From positions 1-34,340 of the forward strand of contig NZ_JADNRS010000007.1 in the NCBI RefSeq assembly GCF_015709225.1: a DNA stretch of 34,340 bases, read 5' to 3'. Position 1 is the stretch's first letter. Each line of letters begins with the position of its first letter. Source of the stretch: Acholeplasma laidlawii. GTDB lineage: Bacteria; Bacillota_I; Bacilli_A; Acholeplasmatales; Acholeplasmataceae. The translations under genes were made by a program, and so were the position numbers. The notes beneath the pieces are model-generated. The model made no database searches. It was not told where the DNA came from and saw only the letters and a program-made list of their open reading frames with translations. Below, piece by piece: positions 1,565-27,990 of the stretch.

Positions 1565-3403
1565 ATGAAAGGTATGAATAATTTGGACAAGAAAACATTA
1601 AACGAACGACAAAAGAATATTAGAAACTTCTCAATTATTGCCCATATTGACCACGGTAAATCAACGCTAGCAGACCGTATTTTAGAAATGACTTCGACTG
1701 TAGATAAGCGAAATATGAAAGCTCAGCTTTTAGATAGTATGGATCTAGAGCGTGAACGTGGTATTACAATTAAATTGAACGCTGTTCAATTAACTTATAA
1801 AGCAAAAGATGGCAATGAATATATATTACATTTAATCGATACCCCAGGGCACGTCGATTTTACCTATGAAGTTTCCAGATCGCTTGCAGCTTGTGAAGGC
1901 GCAATTTTAGTTGTAGATGCTGCACAAGGTATACAAGCACAAACATTAGCGAACGTATATTTAGCTTTAGATAATGATTTAGAAATCATCCCTGTATTAA
2001 ATAAAATAGATTTACCAAGTGCTGAACCGGAAAAAGTAAGAAGAGAAATTGAAGAAATCATTGGTATTGATGCATCAGATGCAGTTATTGCCAGTGGTAA
2101 ATCTGGTCTTGGTGTAATTGATATCTTAGAACGTATTGTTAGAGATGTAAAGCCACCTGAAGGTGATTCTAATGAACCTTTACAAGCATTAATCTTTGAC
2201 TCATTTTTTGATATGTATAGAGGGGTTATTCCTACAATTAGAGTTGTAAATGGTTCTATCAAAAAAGGTGATTTAATTGAGTTTATGGCTACAAAAGCTC
2301 AGTTTGAGGTTGTAGAGGTTGGTGTTTACACACCAGAACAAAAACCAGTAGATATATTAGGACCTGGTGATGTAGGTTATATCACAGCGGCAATTAAAAC
2401 ACTAGATGATGTTCGTGTGGGTGACACCATCACACATGTAAAGAACCATACAAAAAAAGCACTACCAGGTTATAGAACATTAAATCCTGTTGTATTTTGT
2501 GGATTATTCCCAATTGATCCTGATAAATATAGAGATTTAAGAGAAGCGCTAGAAAAATTAAAATTAAATGATGCTTCACTCATCTATGAACCAGAAACAT
2601 CTCAAGCTTTAGGATTTGGTTTCAGAACTGGCTTCCTTGGGTTACTTCACATGGATATCATCCAAGAACGTATTTCAAGAGAGTTTAACATTGAACTTAT
2701 AGCAACAGCACCAAGCGTTATTTATGATGTATATTTAACAGATGGTAGTAAGTTACTCGTAGATAACCCAAGTTTCTTACCGGATGTTCAAAAAATAGAT
2801 CGTATTGAAGAACCGATTGTTAAAGCAACTATCATGTGTCCTAAGGACTATGTTGGTGCTGTTATGGAAATATGTCAGAAAAAGCGTGGTATCTTTAAAG
2901 ACATGACTTATGTAGATCAAACAAGAGTAATGATCACTTATAGAATACCTTTAGCAGAAATTGTGTATGATTTCTTTGATAAATTAAAATCAAGTACAAA
3001 AGGTTATGCATCATTTGACTACGTTTTAGATGGTTATATGACATCCAGATTAAGAAAAATGGATATCTTATTAAATGGTGAAGTAGTGGATGCTTTATCT
3101 GTAATTGTTCACCATGACTTTGCATACTCACGTGGTAAAGCAATAGTTGAAAAATTAAAAACATTAATTCCAAGACAAATGTTTGAAATACCTGTACAAG
3201 CTGCATTAGGTGGTAAGATTATTGCTAGAGAAACAATTAAAGCGATGAGAAAAGACGTTATTGCTAAATGTTACGGTGGTGACGTGTCTCGTAAGAAAAA
3301 ATTACTAGAAAAACAAAAAGAAGGTAAGAAGCGTATGAAAACTTTCGGACGTGTGGATATACCACAAAGTGCCTTCCTCGCAATTTTATCAAACGAAGAT
3401 TGA
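1565..3403 (+). CDS. lepA: Elongation factor 4 (LepA) GTPase
   Basis: Ribosome-associated translational GTPase acting on stalled or mispositioned ribosomes. The sequence shows the G1 motif [10 protein letters not shown]3 DTPGHVDF and G4 NKID. It also has the LepA-specific C-terminal region ending with [20 protein letters not shown]. It is full length (606-612 residues) and highly similar to Bacillus LepA by recall. The start is uncertain. ATG 1565 lies almost at the predicted transcript start. ATG 1574 has GAAAGG directly abutting it. TTG 1583 has GAAAGG 9 nt upstream and gives an N-terminus matching Bacillus LepA in length ([10 protein letters not shown]). I list the longest form but favour TTG 1583. 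The gene is monocistronic, with a terminator after it. Confidence 0.97.
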
Positions 3404-3424
3404 TAACACTTATACTATAAAGTA

Positions 3425-3450
3425 AACAGGTGAAATTCACCTGTTTTTTT
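3425..3450 (+). terminator. Terminator after lepA
   Basis: AACAGGTGAA and TTCACCTGTT form a strong hairpin followed by a run of T, 22 nt after the lepA stop. Confidence 0.9.
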
Positions 3451-3507: not shown

Positions 3508-3536
3508 TTGACATGAATGCGCTTACATGGTATCAT
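3508..3536 (+). promoter_or_regulatory. Near-consensus promoter before short ORFs
   Basis: A perfect -35 TTGACA (3508-3513), a 17-nt spacer and TATCAT (3531-3536). This is the best -35 match noticed in the window. It points at the 30-codon ORF at 3575. Confidence 0.8.
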
Positions 3537-3574
3537 ATGAATGTAGGATAAATCTATGTTCGTGAGGGAATTAA

Positions 3575-3667
3575 ATGAAGATGAAATATACATTTCAAGT
3601 GCATATTAATTCAATTGGTACGCGTCAATTTATTGACAAAATTTATAATAAAATTAAACTAGGGTAG
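3575..3667 (+). CDS. 30-residue small ORF, function unknown
   Basis: ATG 3575 is preceded by GTGAGGG with a 6-nt spacer and opens a 30-codon frame ending TAG at 3665-3667. The product begins MKMKYTFQVHINSIG and ends IYNKIKLG; it is basic and has no obvious membrane helix. It sits about 30 nt after a near-consensus promoter and immediately before a hairpin plus T-run, so it could be a microprotein or a leader ORF for the 67-codon gene that follows. I recognise no family. The support is the promoter/SD/terminator arrangement, not homology. Confidence 0.5.
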   Translation: MKMKYTFQVHINSIGTRQFIDKIYNKIKLG

Positions 3668-3694
3668 GAATATTATATATTCATACCTTTTTTT
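3661..3694 (+). terminator. Terminator or attenuator between two short ORFs
   Basis: GGTA-G-GAAT pairs with ATTC-A-TACC (one internal mismatch, 7-nt loop) and is followed by seven T. The 5' arm overlaps the stop of the 30-codon ORF, so a ribosome terminating there would cover part of the stem. Confidence 0.65.
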
Positions 3695-3713
3695 ATGACT
3701 TAGGAGGATAATT

Positions 3714-3917
3714 ATGAACACAATTCTTTATATGAATAACAAGAATCCATATGTAAAATATAGATCTGTTAATCCAGATACTGGTAATGTTAAGGTATCA
3801 ACAGAGGTTTATGATAAAGTCAATGATGAGATACTTGAAAACATCCTACACCAAACAACTAATAAAAAAAAAAATAATTTCTTTATAGAATTAAAAAACT
3901 TTTTCTCTCTCTTATAA
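3714..3917 (+). CDS. 67-residue hypothetical protein
   Basis: A small hydrophilic protein with strong initiation signals: AGGAGG sits 8 nt before ATG 3714. It starts MNTILYMNNKNPYVKYRS and contains a DTGNVKVSTEVYDKVNDEILENIL stretch likely to be strand then helix. It ends with a Lys/Asn-rich, Phe-rich tail (NKKKNNFFIELKNFFSLL) that could be an amphipathic membrane-contacting helix. No family recognised. It has a terminator on each side, so it may be expressed by read-through from the 3508 promoter. Confidence 0.65.
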   Translation: MNTILYMNNKNPYVKYRSVNPDTGNVKVSTEVYDKVNDEILENILHQTTNKKKNNFFIELKNFFSLL

Positions 3918-3954
3918 AGAGGTATCTATTCAGGCTAGATACCTCTTTATTTTG
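3916..3954 (+). terminator. Terminator after 67-residue ORF
   Basis: AAAGAGGTATCTA pairs perfectly with TAGATACCTCTTT (13 bp, 7-nt loop), then ATTTT. The stem begins inside the ORF stop codon. Confidence 0.9.
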
Positions 3955-3961
3955 ATATAAT
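3953..3961 (+). promoter_or_regulatory. Extended -10 promoter of hemW operon
   Basis: TGATATAAT with TATAAT at 3956-3961, directly after the preceding terminator. No good -35 because that space is the terminator stem. Predicted transcript start near 3968, 19 nt before the hemW ATG. Confidence 0.6.
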
Positions 3962-3986: not shown

Positions 3987-5078
3987 ATGAAGGGTTTATA
4001 TATCCATATACCGTTTTGCGAGTACATCTGTCACTATTGTGATTTTGTTAAAAGAGTCCCTAAAAATCAAAATATGATAGATCAATATTTAATTAAATTA
4101 AGAGAAGAAATAATGACTTATGAGAGTCATTTTGATTCTATAGAGACAATCTTTGTTGGCGGGGGAACACCTTCCATGTTAACTGTAGATCAATTAACTT
4201 ACCTGTTTGACTCGCTTGTAAGAATTAAACCAGTAGAATTTTCAATTGAACTTAATCCAGAAAGCTACACACATGAAAAAGGTTTAGTATTTAAAAAATA
4301 TGGGATTAACCGTATATCCATGGGTGTCCAGAGTTTTGATGATAAAATACTTGCTTATTTAAATAGAGGACACAAAACAGAACAAGTGTTTTCTATCATA
4401 AAAGACTTAAAAGACCTAGGCATTCCTTATATTTCTATTGACTTAATATTTGCAATACCAGGACAAACCCTAGATCATATTAAGTATGATTTAGAGCAGT
4501 TCTTAAAATTGGAAATAACTCATATTTCTTATTATTCTTTAATTTTAGAAGATAAAACCTACTTTTATCATCAGTACCTTAAAGATAATTTCAAACCGAT
4601 GGATGAAGATAATGAAGCTATTATGTATGAGTATGTCATGAATTTTTTAACAAATCATGGTTATGATCAATATGAAATAAGCAACTATGCAAAAAATAAC
4701 CATTATTCACTACACAATAATATCTATTGGACATTAGGTGAATATATTGGTGTAGGATTAGGGGCTCATGGGTTTATTGATAATTATAGAACGTACAATG
4801 AGCGCGGTATGGGTCAATATATGGATCATTTCTTAAAGGAAAAAACACTTCAAACTGAGGATTTAAAACTACAAGATGAACTTATATTTGGCTTAAGATT
4901 AACTAAGGGTGTATACATTCCTAGACTAGAACAAAAATATAAAATAAAATTAACTGAAAAATACCCCCAAATTCATGATAAAATAAAACTAGGATTACTT
5001 GAAATTAAAGATGACTATATACGTCTAACTAAGGAAGGTACAATGCTTGGTAATCAAGTATTTATGATATTTGTATGA
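3987..5078 (+). CDS. hemW: Radical SAM heme chaperone HemW-like protein
   Basis: Radical SAM protein of the HemN/HemW family, 363 residues. The iron-sulfur motif is C11-x3-C15-x2-C18. Residue 20, which is Cys in true oxygen-independent coproporphyrinogen oxidase HemN, is Phe here, which favours HemW. The GGGTPS motif and the later SMGVQSF and SNYAKNNHYSLHNNIYW stretches are typical. HemW binds heme and is proposed to insert it into haemoproteins; no heme-synthesis gene is visible in this window. AAGGTAGG precedes ATG 3987. The last codons overlap xerD by an ATGA, so the two are co-translated. Confidence 0.88.
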   Translation: MKGLYIHIPFCEYICHYCDFVKRVPKNQNMIDQYLIKLREEIMTYESHFDSIETIFVGGGTPSMLTVDQLTYLFDSLVRIKPVEFSIELNPESYTHEKGLVFKKYGINRISMGVQSFDDKILAYLNRGHKTEQVFSIIKDLKDLGIPYISIDLIFAIPGQTLDHIKYDLEQFLKLEITHISYYSLILEDKTYFYHQYLKDNFKPMDEDNEAIMYEYVMNFLTNHGYDQYEISNYAKNNHYSLHNNIYWTLGEYIGVGLGAHGFIDNYRTYNERGMGQYMDHFLKEKTLQTEDLKLQDELIFGLRLTKGVYIPRLEQKYKIKLTEKYPQIHDKIKLGLLEIKDDYIRLTKEGTMLGNQVFMIFV

Positions 5079-24018: not shown

Positions 24019-24750
24019 TTATGAATTAAATAACTTTTCAATCTTTTTGTAGTCTGTTCTATCCATTTTTAATGGAGTAATTGAAACATAACCTTCATTA
24101 AATGCAGTCATATCAGCATCCTGATCTTCTTTTACGAAGATATTAGATCCTAATATTCTATATGTATTTGGCTTATCGGTTTTAATGAATTCAGAGTGTT
24201 GAATTCTTAACCCCATTTTAGTAATTCGTGTACCAAGTACTTTTTTAAAAGATGCATGTGGATAGTTAATATTTAATATATCAGTTTCTAAATATAATTT
24301 ATTTTCAATGATTTCATCTAATATTTTGATAGTTTCGTCAAATATATAAGGTAATTTAATGTCAGGTGCTGAGAAAGCTATTGCATTTAATCCCATAATA
24401 GAAGCTTCAAAAGCTGCAGCTACTGTACCAGAGTATTGAACATCAATTGCTAAATTGACGCCATCATTGATACCTGATACAACTAGATCAAATTCTTGTT
24501 CAAAGACTTTCACACCTAATCGAACACAGTCTGCAGGTGTGCCATCAACAACTATAGTTCTTACACTACCTAATACAGGTTCAATTTCTTCAACATCAAT
24601 ATAACCTGTATAGGTAATTGATGCCGACTTTGCAGATTGTTGAACTTTTGGTGCAGACACATAGACACTTCCGTGATAACTTGCTGCTTTTGTTAATATA
24701 CGTAAACCTTCTGCATCGATTCCATCATCATTGACCACTAAAATGTTCAT
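24019..24750 (-). CDS. surE: 5'/3'-nucleotidase SurE
   Basis: Metal-dependent phosphatase on nucleoside monophosphates. N-terminal NDDG metal motif (MNILVVNDDGIDAEG), SAPKVQQSAKSAS, and SGINDGVNLAIDVQYSGTVAAAFEA, which completes the site. 243 residues, normal. It overlaps ileS by an ATGA. Its products are nucleosides, which the downstream phosphorylase DeoD can use. Confidence 0.95.
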   Translation of the reverse strand: MNILVVNDDGIDAEGLRILTKAASYHGSVYVSAPKVQQSAKSASITYTGYIDVEEIEPVLGSVRTIVVDGTPADCVRLGVKVFEQEFDLVVSGINDGVNLAIDVQYSGTVAAAFEASIMGLNAIAFSAPDIKLPYIFDETIKILDEIIENKLYLETDILNINYPHASFKKVLGTRITKMGLRIQHSEFIKTDKPNTYRILGSNIFVKEDQDADMTAFNEGYVSITPLKMDRTDYKKIEKLFNS

Positions 24751-27437
24751 TTAAGACCCTCCAGAACGCTTTCACAACGTAAACATACGTCATCTTGATT
24801 TACTTCTTTAACGATATTCCAACATCTTGCACAAACATGTCCATCAGCTTTAGAAACTTTAATATCTAATTGATCTGCTTTGGATATATGGACACTTGAA
24901 ACAATAAGTATTTTATCTAATTTATCTAATAAATCTAAATATTCAAGTGCATCATAAGTTGTTTGATCCACACTTAAATTTAGGTGAGCATCCAGTGATT
25001 TACCAATCACTTTTGCTTCACGAGCTAGTTCTAAATGTTTTAATACATGATTTCTTAGTTCGTCAAATATGTCATATTTTACTTGTAGTTTTGGTTCTTT
25101 TAGTTTACCACCAATTGGCATTTTTTCCAAATAGATGTTGTCATATTCTTTATATTTAAGACTATCGTAAGCCTCTGAAGTTGTATGAGGCATGATAGGT
25201 GTTAATAATCTAAGTAATCCTAATAGTATATCATAAATTGTTGATTGGATAGCACGACGTTCAAAATCATCTTCCGCATCACAATATAGGCTATCTTTTG
25301 TATAGTCTAGGTAGAATGCTGATAAATCATTTACTACAAATGGAATAATCAGTCTTGTAACTTCAACAAAGTTGTATTTTGCATAACTCTCATTCACTTT
25401 TGTAGCTAAAACATAGTATTTATCAGTCATAACACGGTTTAATTGCCCACGCATAGACCAACCAATATAATTTTCTTCCGGATTAAAACCATCTAAAACA
25501 CCAAGCATAAATCTGAATGTATTTCTAAACTTTCTGTAACTTTCAGAAACTTGCTTCATTAAATCATTAGAAATACGCACGTCTGCTTCGTAGTCTACAG
25601 ATGCAACCCATAATCTTAAGACATCGGCACCTTGATCGTTCATGACAGTTAAAGGGTCAATGACGTTACCTAAAGATTTAGACATCTTTCTACCTTTACC
25701 ATCTAAAACGAAACCGTGTGAAACAATTTCTTTGTATGGAGATACACCATCTACTGCGATTGCTGTAGTTAAACTTGAGTTAAACCATCCTCTATATTGA
25801 TCTGAACCTTCTAAATACATATCCGCAGGAAATGTTAGTCCACGACGTTTTAATATATTATAAGATGTACCACTATCAAACCAAACATCCATGATGTCTA
25901 GTTCTTTCGTTAAGTCTCTTGGTCCTTTATAATCATCTGGTAAAAGTTTTTCTACATCCCATTCATACCAAATATCTGATCCGTGTACTTCAAATAATGA
26001 GGCTACATGATCAATTAGTTTTCTATCTAGTAAAGGATTATTTTCATTATCATAGAAGATTGGAATTGGAACACCCCAAACACGTTGACGGCTAATGACC
26101 CAGTCATTACGGTCTTTAATCATGTTTGTAAGTCTCACCTCACCCCAGGAAGTATGCCATTTAACACCTTTGATTGCTTCAAGTAAATCACCTTTTAACA
26201 TATCAATACTTGCAAACCATTGAGGTGTAGATCTAAAGATGACAGGCTTTTTAGTACGCCAGTCATGAGGATATGAGTGGGTAATCGTTTCATCATATAA
26301 TAAATGACCATTTTCACGTAAATCTTCTACGATTTGTGCGTTAGCTTTTTCATAGAACATACCAGCATAAGGGCCTGCTTCTTCAGTCATGTGACCTTTT
26401 TCATCAACTGGTGAAAGTAGGTCTAGATTATATTTTTTACCTACAAAATAGTCATCTTCCCCGTGTCCAGGTGCTGTATGTACTAGACCAGTACCATCTT
26501 CAGCTGTAACGTGTTCACCTAAGATAATCGGGCTTACACGGTCATATAATGGGTGCTTATAGTTCATGAACTCTAGTGTGCTACCTTTGAATTCTTTTAG
26601 TACTTTCGCATTTAAAAAGCCTAATTTTTCTAATAATTTAGGAAGTAATTCTTTTAATGCAATATAATTTTTACCCTCATTATTAAACCATACATAATCA
26701 AAATTTGGATGCACTGAAACAGCTAGGTTCGCTGGTAGTGTCCAAGGTGTAGTTGTCCAAATAAGTAGTCTAGTATTTGGGAATTTATCACCCATCATAT
26801 CAAATCCAACATAAATAGATTTTGATTGTTTATCCATATACTCGATTTCAGCCTCAGCAAATGCTGATTCTGAGGATGGTGACCAATAGATAGGTTTTAA
26901 ACCTTTATAAATAATGCCTTTATCGACCATTTGACTAAATACTCTGACTTGGTCAGCAATATAAGATTTATCTAATGTTAAATAAGGATTACCCCAATCA
27001 CCTAAGATGCCTAAACGTTTAAATTGTGCTTTTTGTACTTCTACTTGTTTTATCGCATACTCTCTACAGATTTTTCTAAACTCTGCACGTGTGAGTTGTT
27101 TACGATCTACACCACTTTTGGTAACTTCATTTTCAATCGGTAAACCATGCGTATCCCAACCTGGAATATATGGGGTATAACGACCTGACATCGTTTGATA
27201 TCTTAAAACAAAGTCTTTTAAAGTCTTTTGAAAGGCATGACCTATATGAATGTTATTATTAGCATATGGTGGCCCATCATGTAAAACAAATGGTGTATTA
27301 TCTTTATTTTTTTCTAATACTTTATTGTATAAATCGATTGATTCCCAATGCTTTTGAATTTCAGGTTCTCTTTTACCAAGATTACCTCTCATTTCAAAAT
27401 CAGTTTTAGGCATTAAAAGTGTGTCTTTATAGTTCAT
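24747..27437 (-). CDS. ileS: Isoleucyl-tRNA synthetase
   Basis: Charges tRNA-Ile. Class I motifs HIGH (residues 64-67, NNIHIGHAFQ) and KMSKS (GRKMSKSLGN) are intact, as is the editing-domain stretch LIWTTTPWTLPANLA. A C-terminal zinc finger is present (CARC...CLRC). 896 residues, close to Bacillus IleS in size and type. Expression is governed by the T-box leader immediately upstream. surE overlaps its stop. Confidence 0.98.
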   Translation of the reverse strand: MNYKDTLLMPKTDFEMRGNLGKREPEIQKHWESIDLYNKVLEKNKDNTPFVLHDGPPYANNNIHIGHAFQKTLKDFVLRYQTMSGRYTPYIPGWDTHGLPIENEVTKSGVDRKQLTRAEFRKICREYAIKQVEVQKAQFKRLGILGDWGNPYLTLDKSYIADQVRVFSQMVDKGIIYKGLKPIYWSPSSESAFAEAEIEYMDKQSKSIYVGFDMMGDKFPNTRLLIWTTTPWTLPANLAVSVHPNFDYVWFNNEGKNYIALKELLPKLLEKLGFLNAKVLKEFKGSTLEFMNYKHPLYDRVSPIILGEHVTAEDGTGLVHTAPGHGEDDYFVGKKYNLDLLSPVDEKGHMTEEAGPYAGMFYEKANAQIVEDLRENGHLLYDETITHSYPHDWRTKKPVIFRSTPQWFASIDMLKGDLLEAIKGVKWHTSWGEVRLTNMIKDRNDWVISRQRVWGVPIPIFYDNENNPLLDRKLIDHVASLFEVHGSDIWYEWDVEKLLPDDYKGPRDLTKELDIMDVWFDSGTSYNILKRRGLTFPADMYLEGSDQYRGWFNSSLTTAIAVDGVSPYKEIVSHGFVLDGKGRKMSKSLGNVIDPLTVMNDQGADVLRLWVASVDYEADVRISNDLMKQVSESYRKFRNTFRFMLGVLDGFNPEENYIGWSMRGQLNRVMTDKYYVLATKVNESYAKYNFVEVTRLIIPFVVNDLSAFYLDYTKDSLYCDAEDDFERRAIQSTIYDILLGLLRLLTPIMPHTTSEAYDSLKYKEYDNIYLEKMPIGGKLKEPKLQVKYDIFDELRNHVLKHLELAREAKVIGKSLDAHLNLSVDQTTYDALEYLDLLDKLDKILIVSSVHISKADQLDIKVSKADGHVCARCWNIVKEVNQDDVCLRCESVLEGLK

Positions 27438-27461: not shown

Positions 27462-27494
27462 TAAAAACGTCCTTAAAAATAAATTCTAAGGACG
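27462..27494 (-). terminator. T-box-controlled terminator
   Basis: Minus-strand CGTCCTTA / TAAGGACG stem with TTTTTATTT. The 5' arm is shared with the antiterminator of the T-box. Confidence 0.92.
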
Positions 27495-27657
27495 AAAGTC
27501 AAATTCGCGGTACCACCTTAGTTCACAATTAATCATTGTGCACTCAATTGATTTTTATGCTTGCTCCTAGTTGATAATAGCTGTTGTGTTTGTTTATAAG
27601 GCTTACACCATCCCTTACTCGCTTTAAACCTTTACAAGGCTACCTGTTCTAATCATT
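27462..27657 (-). ncRNA. T-box leader, isoleucine specific
   Basis: tRNA-sensing leader of ileS. The T-box core AAGGTGGTACCGCG is at 27506-27519 on the minus strand. The distal stem I element GCGAGTAAGGGATGGTGTAAG and a specifier-like ATC (Ile; about 27573-27575) followed by A lie upstream. The switch is visible. CTAAGG (27516-27521) can pair with CCTTAG (27486-27491) to form the antiterminator. Alternatively CGTCCTTA (27487-27494) pairs with TAAGGACG (27468-27475) plus a T-run to form the terminator. Uncharged tRNA-Ile should favour read-through. It begins right after the sepF stop. Confidence 0.95.
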
Positions 27658-27663
27658 GCAATA

Positions 27664-27990
27664 TTAATTTAAATTTGTTTTTAACCAAGTTTCCACTGTT
27701 TGGTCATCATATAGTTCTTTGTTACCAAATAAATATGTTGTTTCATTGATTTCAACAATATGACCGCTAATTGCGTATACAACACCAGACATAAATGCTA
27801 TCGCTTTATTGGCTCTGTCAATGTGAAGTGCCTCAAAATTAAGTATGAGTGGCGCACCATCCATCATTTGTTTAGCTAGTGCTGTGATATATGCATCATC
27901 ATCATTTTTTAATTGTTCCATAATGAAACGGTCAGCAGTTTGAATATGAACTTGTTGATTCTTTTGCTTTTTTTTACCAAATAAACCCAT
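27664..27990 (-). CDS. sepF: Cell division protein SepF
   Basis: FtsZ-binding protein that tethers and bundles the Z ring at the membrane. The 108-residue product has the SepF core: ADRFIMEQLKNDDDAYITALAKQMMDGAPLILNFEAL, then FMSGVVYAISGHIVEINETTYLFGN. The N-terminus is short (MGLFGKKKQKNQQ) compared with the longer linker of Bacillus SepF, so membrane binding may rest on MGLFGKKK. Its ATG shares a base with the yggS stop. The T-box leader follows directly. Confidence 0.9.
   Translation of the reverse strand: MGLFGKKKQKNQQVHIQTADRFIMEQLKNDDDAYITALAKQMMDGAPLILNFEALHIDRANKAIAFMSGVVYAISGHIVEINETTYLFGNKELYDDQTVETWLKTNLN

Follow-up and report, generated by a model that had tools for sequence, protein, structure and literature searches.

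A conserved unit between lepA and hemW in Acholeplasma as a candidate for carbon-controlled, translation-coupled attenuation of a small-protein gene

Expression of the E. coli pyrBI operon is governed by attenuation that is coupled to translation of a leader ORF (PyrL), and the streptococcal csRNAs share an architecture of a stem-loop, an unpaired pyrimidine stretch and a terminator. At pyrBI a short leader ORF extends to an intrinsic terminator, the hairpin of which would be blocked by a ribosome close by, with read-through as the result, and the system has a UTP-controlled pause. PMC4824070, in which details of pyrBI are cited, describes for E. coli that ribosomes repress a terminator situated within a few bp downstream of a stop codon and that this repression is gone when translation is removed. 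For B. subtilis, the account in PMC8464778 presents SR1 as a carbon-catabolite repressed small transcript that encodes the small protein SR1P, and places it mainly under CcpN, with a cre ~260 bp upstream. Strong cre boxes have the consensus TGAAAGCGCTTTCA, and those that overlap promoters repress, according to the treatment of the subject in PMC3463425. For A. laidlawii itself, PMC5138195 names a CcpA with a regulon of three operons, the main text of that article making no mention of lepA or hemN. Mollicutes are models of reduced regulation, and a catabolite-controlled, translation-sensing attenuator joined to an orphan small protein would, if true, mean that layered RNA-level control has been kept in Acholeplasma.

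The window, by which we mean the whole 34,340-nt stretch of A. laidlawii DNA that was analysed, carries between lepA (1565-3403) and hemW (3987-5078) a small transcription unit that is real and conserved. Downstream of lepA's own terminator (3424-3446) lies a sigma-A type promoter on the + strand (3508..3536, TTGACA-17-TATCAT), in which the -35 (TTGACA, 3508-3513) and the -10 (TATCAT, 3531-3536) are separated by a 17-nt spacer, 11 of 12 consensus positions agree and a TG precedes the -10; from its position, transcription is predicted to start at ~3543. ORF1, a putative leader ORF of 30 codons, follows on the same strand (3575..3667) behind the ribosome-binding site GAGGG (3564-3568), and its stop codon TAG (3665-3667) falls within the 5' arm of a mid-unit hairpin that begins at 3661 and, together with a T7 run (3688-3694), makes up a putative attenuator (3661..3694, +). 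The first terminator scan was without this mid hairpin under its criteria, and later folds and another scan show it. Beyond it come the ribosome-binding site of ORF2, an AGGAGG read directly from the sequence (3702..3707, +), ORF2 itself, with 67 codons in the window (3714..3917, +), and the intrinsic terminator of the unit (3914..3950, +), in which 15 pairs were counted, four of them G-C. An extended -10 (TG-A-TATAAT, 3953-3961) was read by eye as the promoter of hemW. The first-pass annotation of this DNA had proposed a near-consensus promoter, a 30-codon first ORF with a good Shine-Dalgarno sequence, a terminator overlapping its stop and then AGGAGG, a second ORF and a closing terminator, and all of these are present. 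What it missed is the cre-like palindrome CATGAATGCGCTTACATG (3512..3529), a putative CcpA operator with a 14-nt core (3514-3527) in the promoter spacer.

A promoter and a terminator occupy the lepA-hemW place in all eight Acholeplasma genomes compared, among which G000 is the window genome and G002 its sister genome. The annotation had named a lack of conservation of the frames as one half of what would refute it, and on that half the proposal survives, the full two-ORF layout being kept in seven of the eight. By composition alone, in each of these seven genomes ORF1 would be open with a probability of 0.05-0.08 and ORF2 with one of 0.001-0.01, values that come from related genomes and hence are not independent. 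The exception is G001, where ORF1 and ORF2 are lost along with the mid hairpin, and the promoter, a CU-rich tract near the 3' end and the terminator are kept; the ORFs and the mid hairpin are hence dispensable there. At this locus of G001 (L027, positions ~1201-1480, upstream of hemW) other hairpins are found instead, the stability of which is not significant against shuffles (z of the G001 RNA about -1 to -1.5).

HemW is present in all eight genus genomes, and a family search found it in 56 of 81 genomes, 48 of them outside the genus. The other-genus loci that we examined are the 22 best-scoring of these 48: in 18 of them lepA ends only 64-73 nt before hemW, a gap that leaves the unit without room, while three have another neighbour at this place and one meets a contig end. 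The exact promoter/operator string occurs once per genome in seven of the eight genus genomes, the eighth, G004, having a one-base variant in the -35, and was found in 0/53 other genomes, with 0 matches for a reversed-pattern control. A slightly looser DNA pattern run against a named genome collection returned nine loci, four of them in Acholeplasmataceae (A. equifetale, A. oculi, A. granularum and the MAG UBA4853) and five in other taxa, and a protein scan of the same collection gave no relative. In this analysis the unit was seen only in Acholeplasma, the genus to which the window belongs, and the papers listed by a literature search included no report of a lepA-hemW unit.

The comparison of ORF1 across the seven genomes that have it separates its geometry from its peptide. 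Its length is always 28-31 codons, its start lies 36-40 nt beyond the -10, and its stop falls within the 5' arm of the hairpin or immediately next to it; on the 3' side of the hairpin six T are invariant (7/7). The differences in ORF1 are spread evenly over the codon positions, dN exceeds dS in 11 of 21 pairs, and a 13-nt string, TATTTTCATATAA, common to G007 and G003 is read in another frame in G007. From these comparisons we take ORF1 to be constrained mainly in its length, place and stop and not in its peptide. There may also be a weak constraint on the peptide, as in the sister pair G000-G002 dN/dS is ~0.44, a value from six changes only, and 12 of 30 residues are common to G000 and G005. 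The pattern suggests that ORF1 behaves as a regulatory leader ORF would, with its geometry kept and its peptide little kept. The unit could also be a simple bicistronic mRNA for two small proteins, with the mid hairpin setting the ratio between them, as a partial terminator or an element for stability, and not acting as a sensor. Such an mRNA would fit the ribosome-binding sites in front of both ORFs and the two frames that are open in 7/7 genomes, the net charge of the ORF1 peptide, which is positive in every genome (+2 to +5), and the dN/dS of 0.44 in the sister pair; it fits poorly, however, with the evenness of the ORF1 differences across codon positions over all pairs, with the frame change of the 13-nt string and with a stop that stays at the hairpin arm despite the drift of the sequence, and we consider it improbable. 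Of the three options that the annotation had put forward, a leader-controlled gene is the best supported: the frame and length of ORF1 and the coincidence of its stop with the hairpin are kept in 7/7 genomes while the peptide drifts. Its microprotein pair holds up for one partner, ORF2, which looks coding by its codon-position pattern, but nothing indicates that the ORF1 peptide acts.

Folding of the mid-hairpin region is better than that of shuffles (z -1.5 to -4.9), with stems that are weaker or bulged in G003, G004 and G007. The pairs of the hairpin covary slightly and no more than in shuffles (93-145 of 500), no competing antiterminator was found for it, and the 5' parts of the transcripts have folding z values of 0.2 to -1.5, except G007 at -2.4. 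An amino-acid leader-peptide attenuator of the trp/his type was considered and rejected, since no run of codons for a sensed residue is common to the seven ORF1 peptides, in which the longest same-residue run is 1-3. A T-rich element, TTTT.ATATAA, lies in the 3' part of ORF1 (window ~3640-3652); its ATATAA is kept in five of eight genomes, G001 included, and is altered in G000, G002 and G005.

In all seven genomes an intrinsic terminator holds the end of the leader ORF or lies next to it, as expected of a pyrBI-like attenuator, and in this the unit resembles pyrBI. It differs from pyrBI, with its UTP-controlled pause, in the stop of ORF1, which lies at the 5' arm, and in a downstream gene that encodes an orphan small protein. 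The best reading of the locus, and one that we hold to be probable, if only just, is a unit under carbon control in which attenuation of a small-protein gene is coupled to translation. The support from sequence covers conservation, geometry, the coding pattern of ORF2 and the covariation of the last terminator, and we infer CcpA binding, ribosome-controlled read-through and the role of ORF2. The strong promoter would start transcription, and a CcpA-type repressor would shut it when a good sugar is present. Given that ORF1, the presumed leader ORF, has its stop within or immediately next to the 5' arm of an intrinsic terminator, a ribosome that finishes ORF1 close behind RNA polymerase would cover this arm, and the polymerase would read on; were ORF1 untranslated or the ribosome lagging, the hairpin would form and the transcript would end at ~150 nt. 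Read-through would lead to ORF2, predicted to be a fast-evolving small soluble protein, and the longer transcript would end at the second terminator, before the apparently separate hemW promoter. Control of read-through at the mid hairpin by the ribosome is thus proposed by analogy with E. coli, and the conserved geometry offers a simple test of ribosome-RNA polymerase coupling in this lineage.

ORF2 is found at the same place in seven of the eight genus genomes and starts 43-53 nt after the ORF1 stop in 7/7; as regards ribosome reinitiation from ORF1 to ORF2, PMC4833913 reports that tenericutes show no distance peak of the reinitiation type. Selection on ORF2 is visible in the two closest pairs, with differences over the three codon positions of 2/0/6 between the sister genomes G000 and G002 and of 21/13/30 between G003 and G005, and the pairs with dN > dS (6/21) are all distant and near saturation. 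On this pattern we read ORF2, which looks protein-coding, as a gene that evolves fast under purifying selection. The 67 codons that the annotation had given it are present in the window, but this length is specific to the window, the ORF having 51-55 codons in six relatives. The window and the sister genome have the frame in common over roughly the first 54 codons, and the window frame runs past the end of the relatives after an A11 run inside ORF2 (3864..3874, +; read directly and compared between G000 and G002). The extension after A11 may be real, or due to polymerase slippage or to a sequencing error. As a candidate slippage site, the A11 run would give two ORF2 C-termini.

The annotation had called neither product recognisable, and indeed neither has a Pfam or NCBIfam match over the cut-off. 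When ORF2 was used as a single query only G002 and G004 were clearly matched, and a profile run against 160 genomes of the order returned the seven source genomes, by construction, and a weak match in G025 (E 0.005). Homology of ORF2 hence rests mainly on place and layout, because the single query matches few genomes and the profile matches are the source genomes. No convincing relative of ORF2 was found in Pfam, NCBIfam, PDB, PHROGs or PADLOC, the best PDB row (E 3.4e-4) matching a designed protein over 13 residues and the match to phrog_21830, a family of unknown function, having an E of 0.009. The structure model, with two strands and a helix, has a mean pLDDT of 68 and a pTM of 0.30, too weak for a fold search. 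At the RNA level, structured RNA within the ORFs was considered and rejected: the ORF2 bodies fold no better than shuffles in six of seven genomes (z -0.5 to 0.9; the exception is G005 at -2.2), and folding of the whole window transcript gives a z of -1.97. ORF2 adds a small-protein family without known relatives, and that it is a small effector tuning metabolism or translation under sugar scarcity is a guess.

The remaining option of the annotation, a toxin/antitoxin pair, finds no support in these data. A toxin-antitoxin or other selfish pair would be in keeping with the two short neighbouring ORFs, their own promoter and their fast evolution, but the unit sits at one fixed chromosomal site in eight genus genomes. 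No segment of the products is strongly hydrophobic, the highest mean over 17 residues being 1.19, Pfam and NCBIfam give no match over the cut-off, PADLOC, run with ORF2 alone, gives none either, and there is no DNA match in phage or plasmid collections. We regard such a pair as highly improbable.

The palindrome in the promoter bears on the carbon-controlled part of the preferred reading. Scored against the 14-nt cre consensus TGWAANCGNTNWCA, the core within the -35/-10 spacer has 0-1 mismatch in all eight genus genomes, and the 34-kb window holds five places with 0-1 mismatch, the promoter site included. Because the palindrome fills the spacer, a CcpA-type repressor is expected to shut the promoter. 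Genes for a CcpA-like protein and for HPr kinase are present in 8/8 genus genomes, and the best CcpA-like protein of the seven other genomes is 87-99% identical to the copy of the window genome. HPr kinase is over its cut-off in all eight, with a control that is weak, only two of 14 control genomes having matched. The CcpA-like proteins score below the NCBIfam ccpA cut-off in 8/8 genomes and the family model has 3-5 matches per genome at E<=1e-20, so the regulator could be another LacI-family protein. The unit adds a candidate to the three operons named for the CcpA regulon in PMC5138195. It resembles SR1/SR1P as a small transcript encoding a small protein, with a carbon-catabolite repression that is here predicted, and differs in the position of its cre, which lies in the promoter spacer and not ~260 bp upstream, and in having two ORFs and an internal terminator, base pairing being putative. 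SR1/SR1P was not returned by the Rfam, Pfam and NCBIfam scans.

At the 3' end, the CU tract CTTTTTCTCTCTCTT (3899..3913, +) stands directly 5' of the terminator in 8/8 genomes. Covariation in this last terminator is strong, with both-side changes in four of 12 pairs and a score reached by 0/500 shuffles. With the 3' module folded on its own the tract stays unpaired; within the full-length transcript the mean unpaired probability of the tract ranges over 0.33-0.81 and does not consistently exceed the background of 0.41-0.46. On its 5' side lies a small stem-loop, TTCT-TTAT-AGAA (3879..3890, +), which is weak in the window genome (p 0.36), better than shuffles (p<0.05) in three of eight and at p 0.36-0.47 in four genomes, with a Fisher p of 0.0007 over all eight and of 0.0004 without G002. 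We considered and rejected the tract as an antiterminator of the last terminator, as the stem compensates in G006 and G004 and the tract does not follow; with the G006 stem compensated and its tract unchanged, simple antitermination does not explain the tract. Of 98 distinct terminator-like sites in genus DNA, 14 have the tract, seven of them belonging to the unit and the others making up 7/91, a base rate that is if anything overstated because four of these seven come from loci fetched with a model that includes the tract. Other terminators of the genus with a CU tract directly upstream, one of them after a gene of G006 that we read as trpS, were seen at loci L094, L096, L100 and L104, and the tract is possibly a recurrent 3'-end feature of the genus. 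In a search for paralogues of the unit's 3' end the best extra match (G006:C5:21047, E 9.6e-5) is a trpS terminator with a CU tract, the others being weaker than E 0.01.

These 3' features raise the alternative of a dual-function RNA like B. subtilis SR1, in which the transcript, or its 3' end, would act as a base-pairing sRNA through binding of the CU tract to Shine-Dalgarno regions and the transcript would also encode a small protein. An sRNA role is possible because G001 keeps promoter, tract and terminator without the ORFs, and the constancy of the tract beside a compensated stem in G006, its rarity at other terminator-like sites, the small stem-loop and a small protein conserved in 7/8 genomes all agree with this alternative. 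The tract, however, pairs with the ribosome-binding sites of ORF1, ORF2 and hemW no better than shuffles do (seven genomes, without G001), the sole exception being G004 with ORF2, one of 21 tests, at p=0.01; its accessibility in the full transcript is variable, and ORF2 in the window would be translated through it. The 3' end, and this end only, recalls the csRNAs and Listeria rli36. An Rfam scan of the unit gave nothing at the gathering threshold, and at a lax threshold eight weak matches, among them the sRNAs rli36 (E 0.36) and csRNA1 (E 3.8) and others that are plainly unrelated. By this test the unit belongs to neither the csRNAs nor rli36, its scores being 20.0 and 21.3 bits where gathering requires 57 and 50. 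Taken on its own, a dual-function RNA seems to us unlikely. Still more doubtful, in our estimate, is a combination in which one carbon-controlled transcript has two fates set by the ribosome, a ~150-nt leader RNA where translation of ORF1 does not keep step with transcription or a ~410-nt mRNA for a genus-specific small protein with a CU-rich 3' sRNA seed, and in which G001 would have been left with a CcpA-controlled noncoding RNA after decay of the coding part.

Elsewhere in the window, at 84.1 bits and thus just under the gathering score of 93, for which reason the default Rfam scan missed it, we observed a T-box leader (RF00230, E 4.3e-19) on the - strand at 27485-27665, before ileS (24747-27437).
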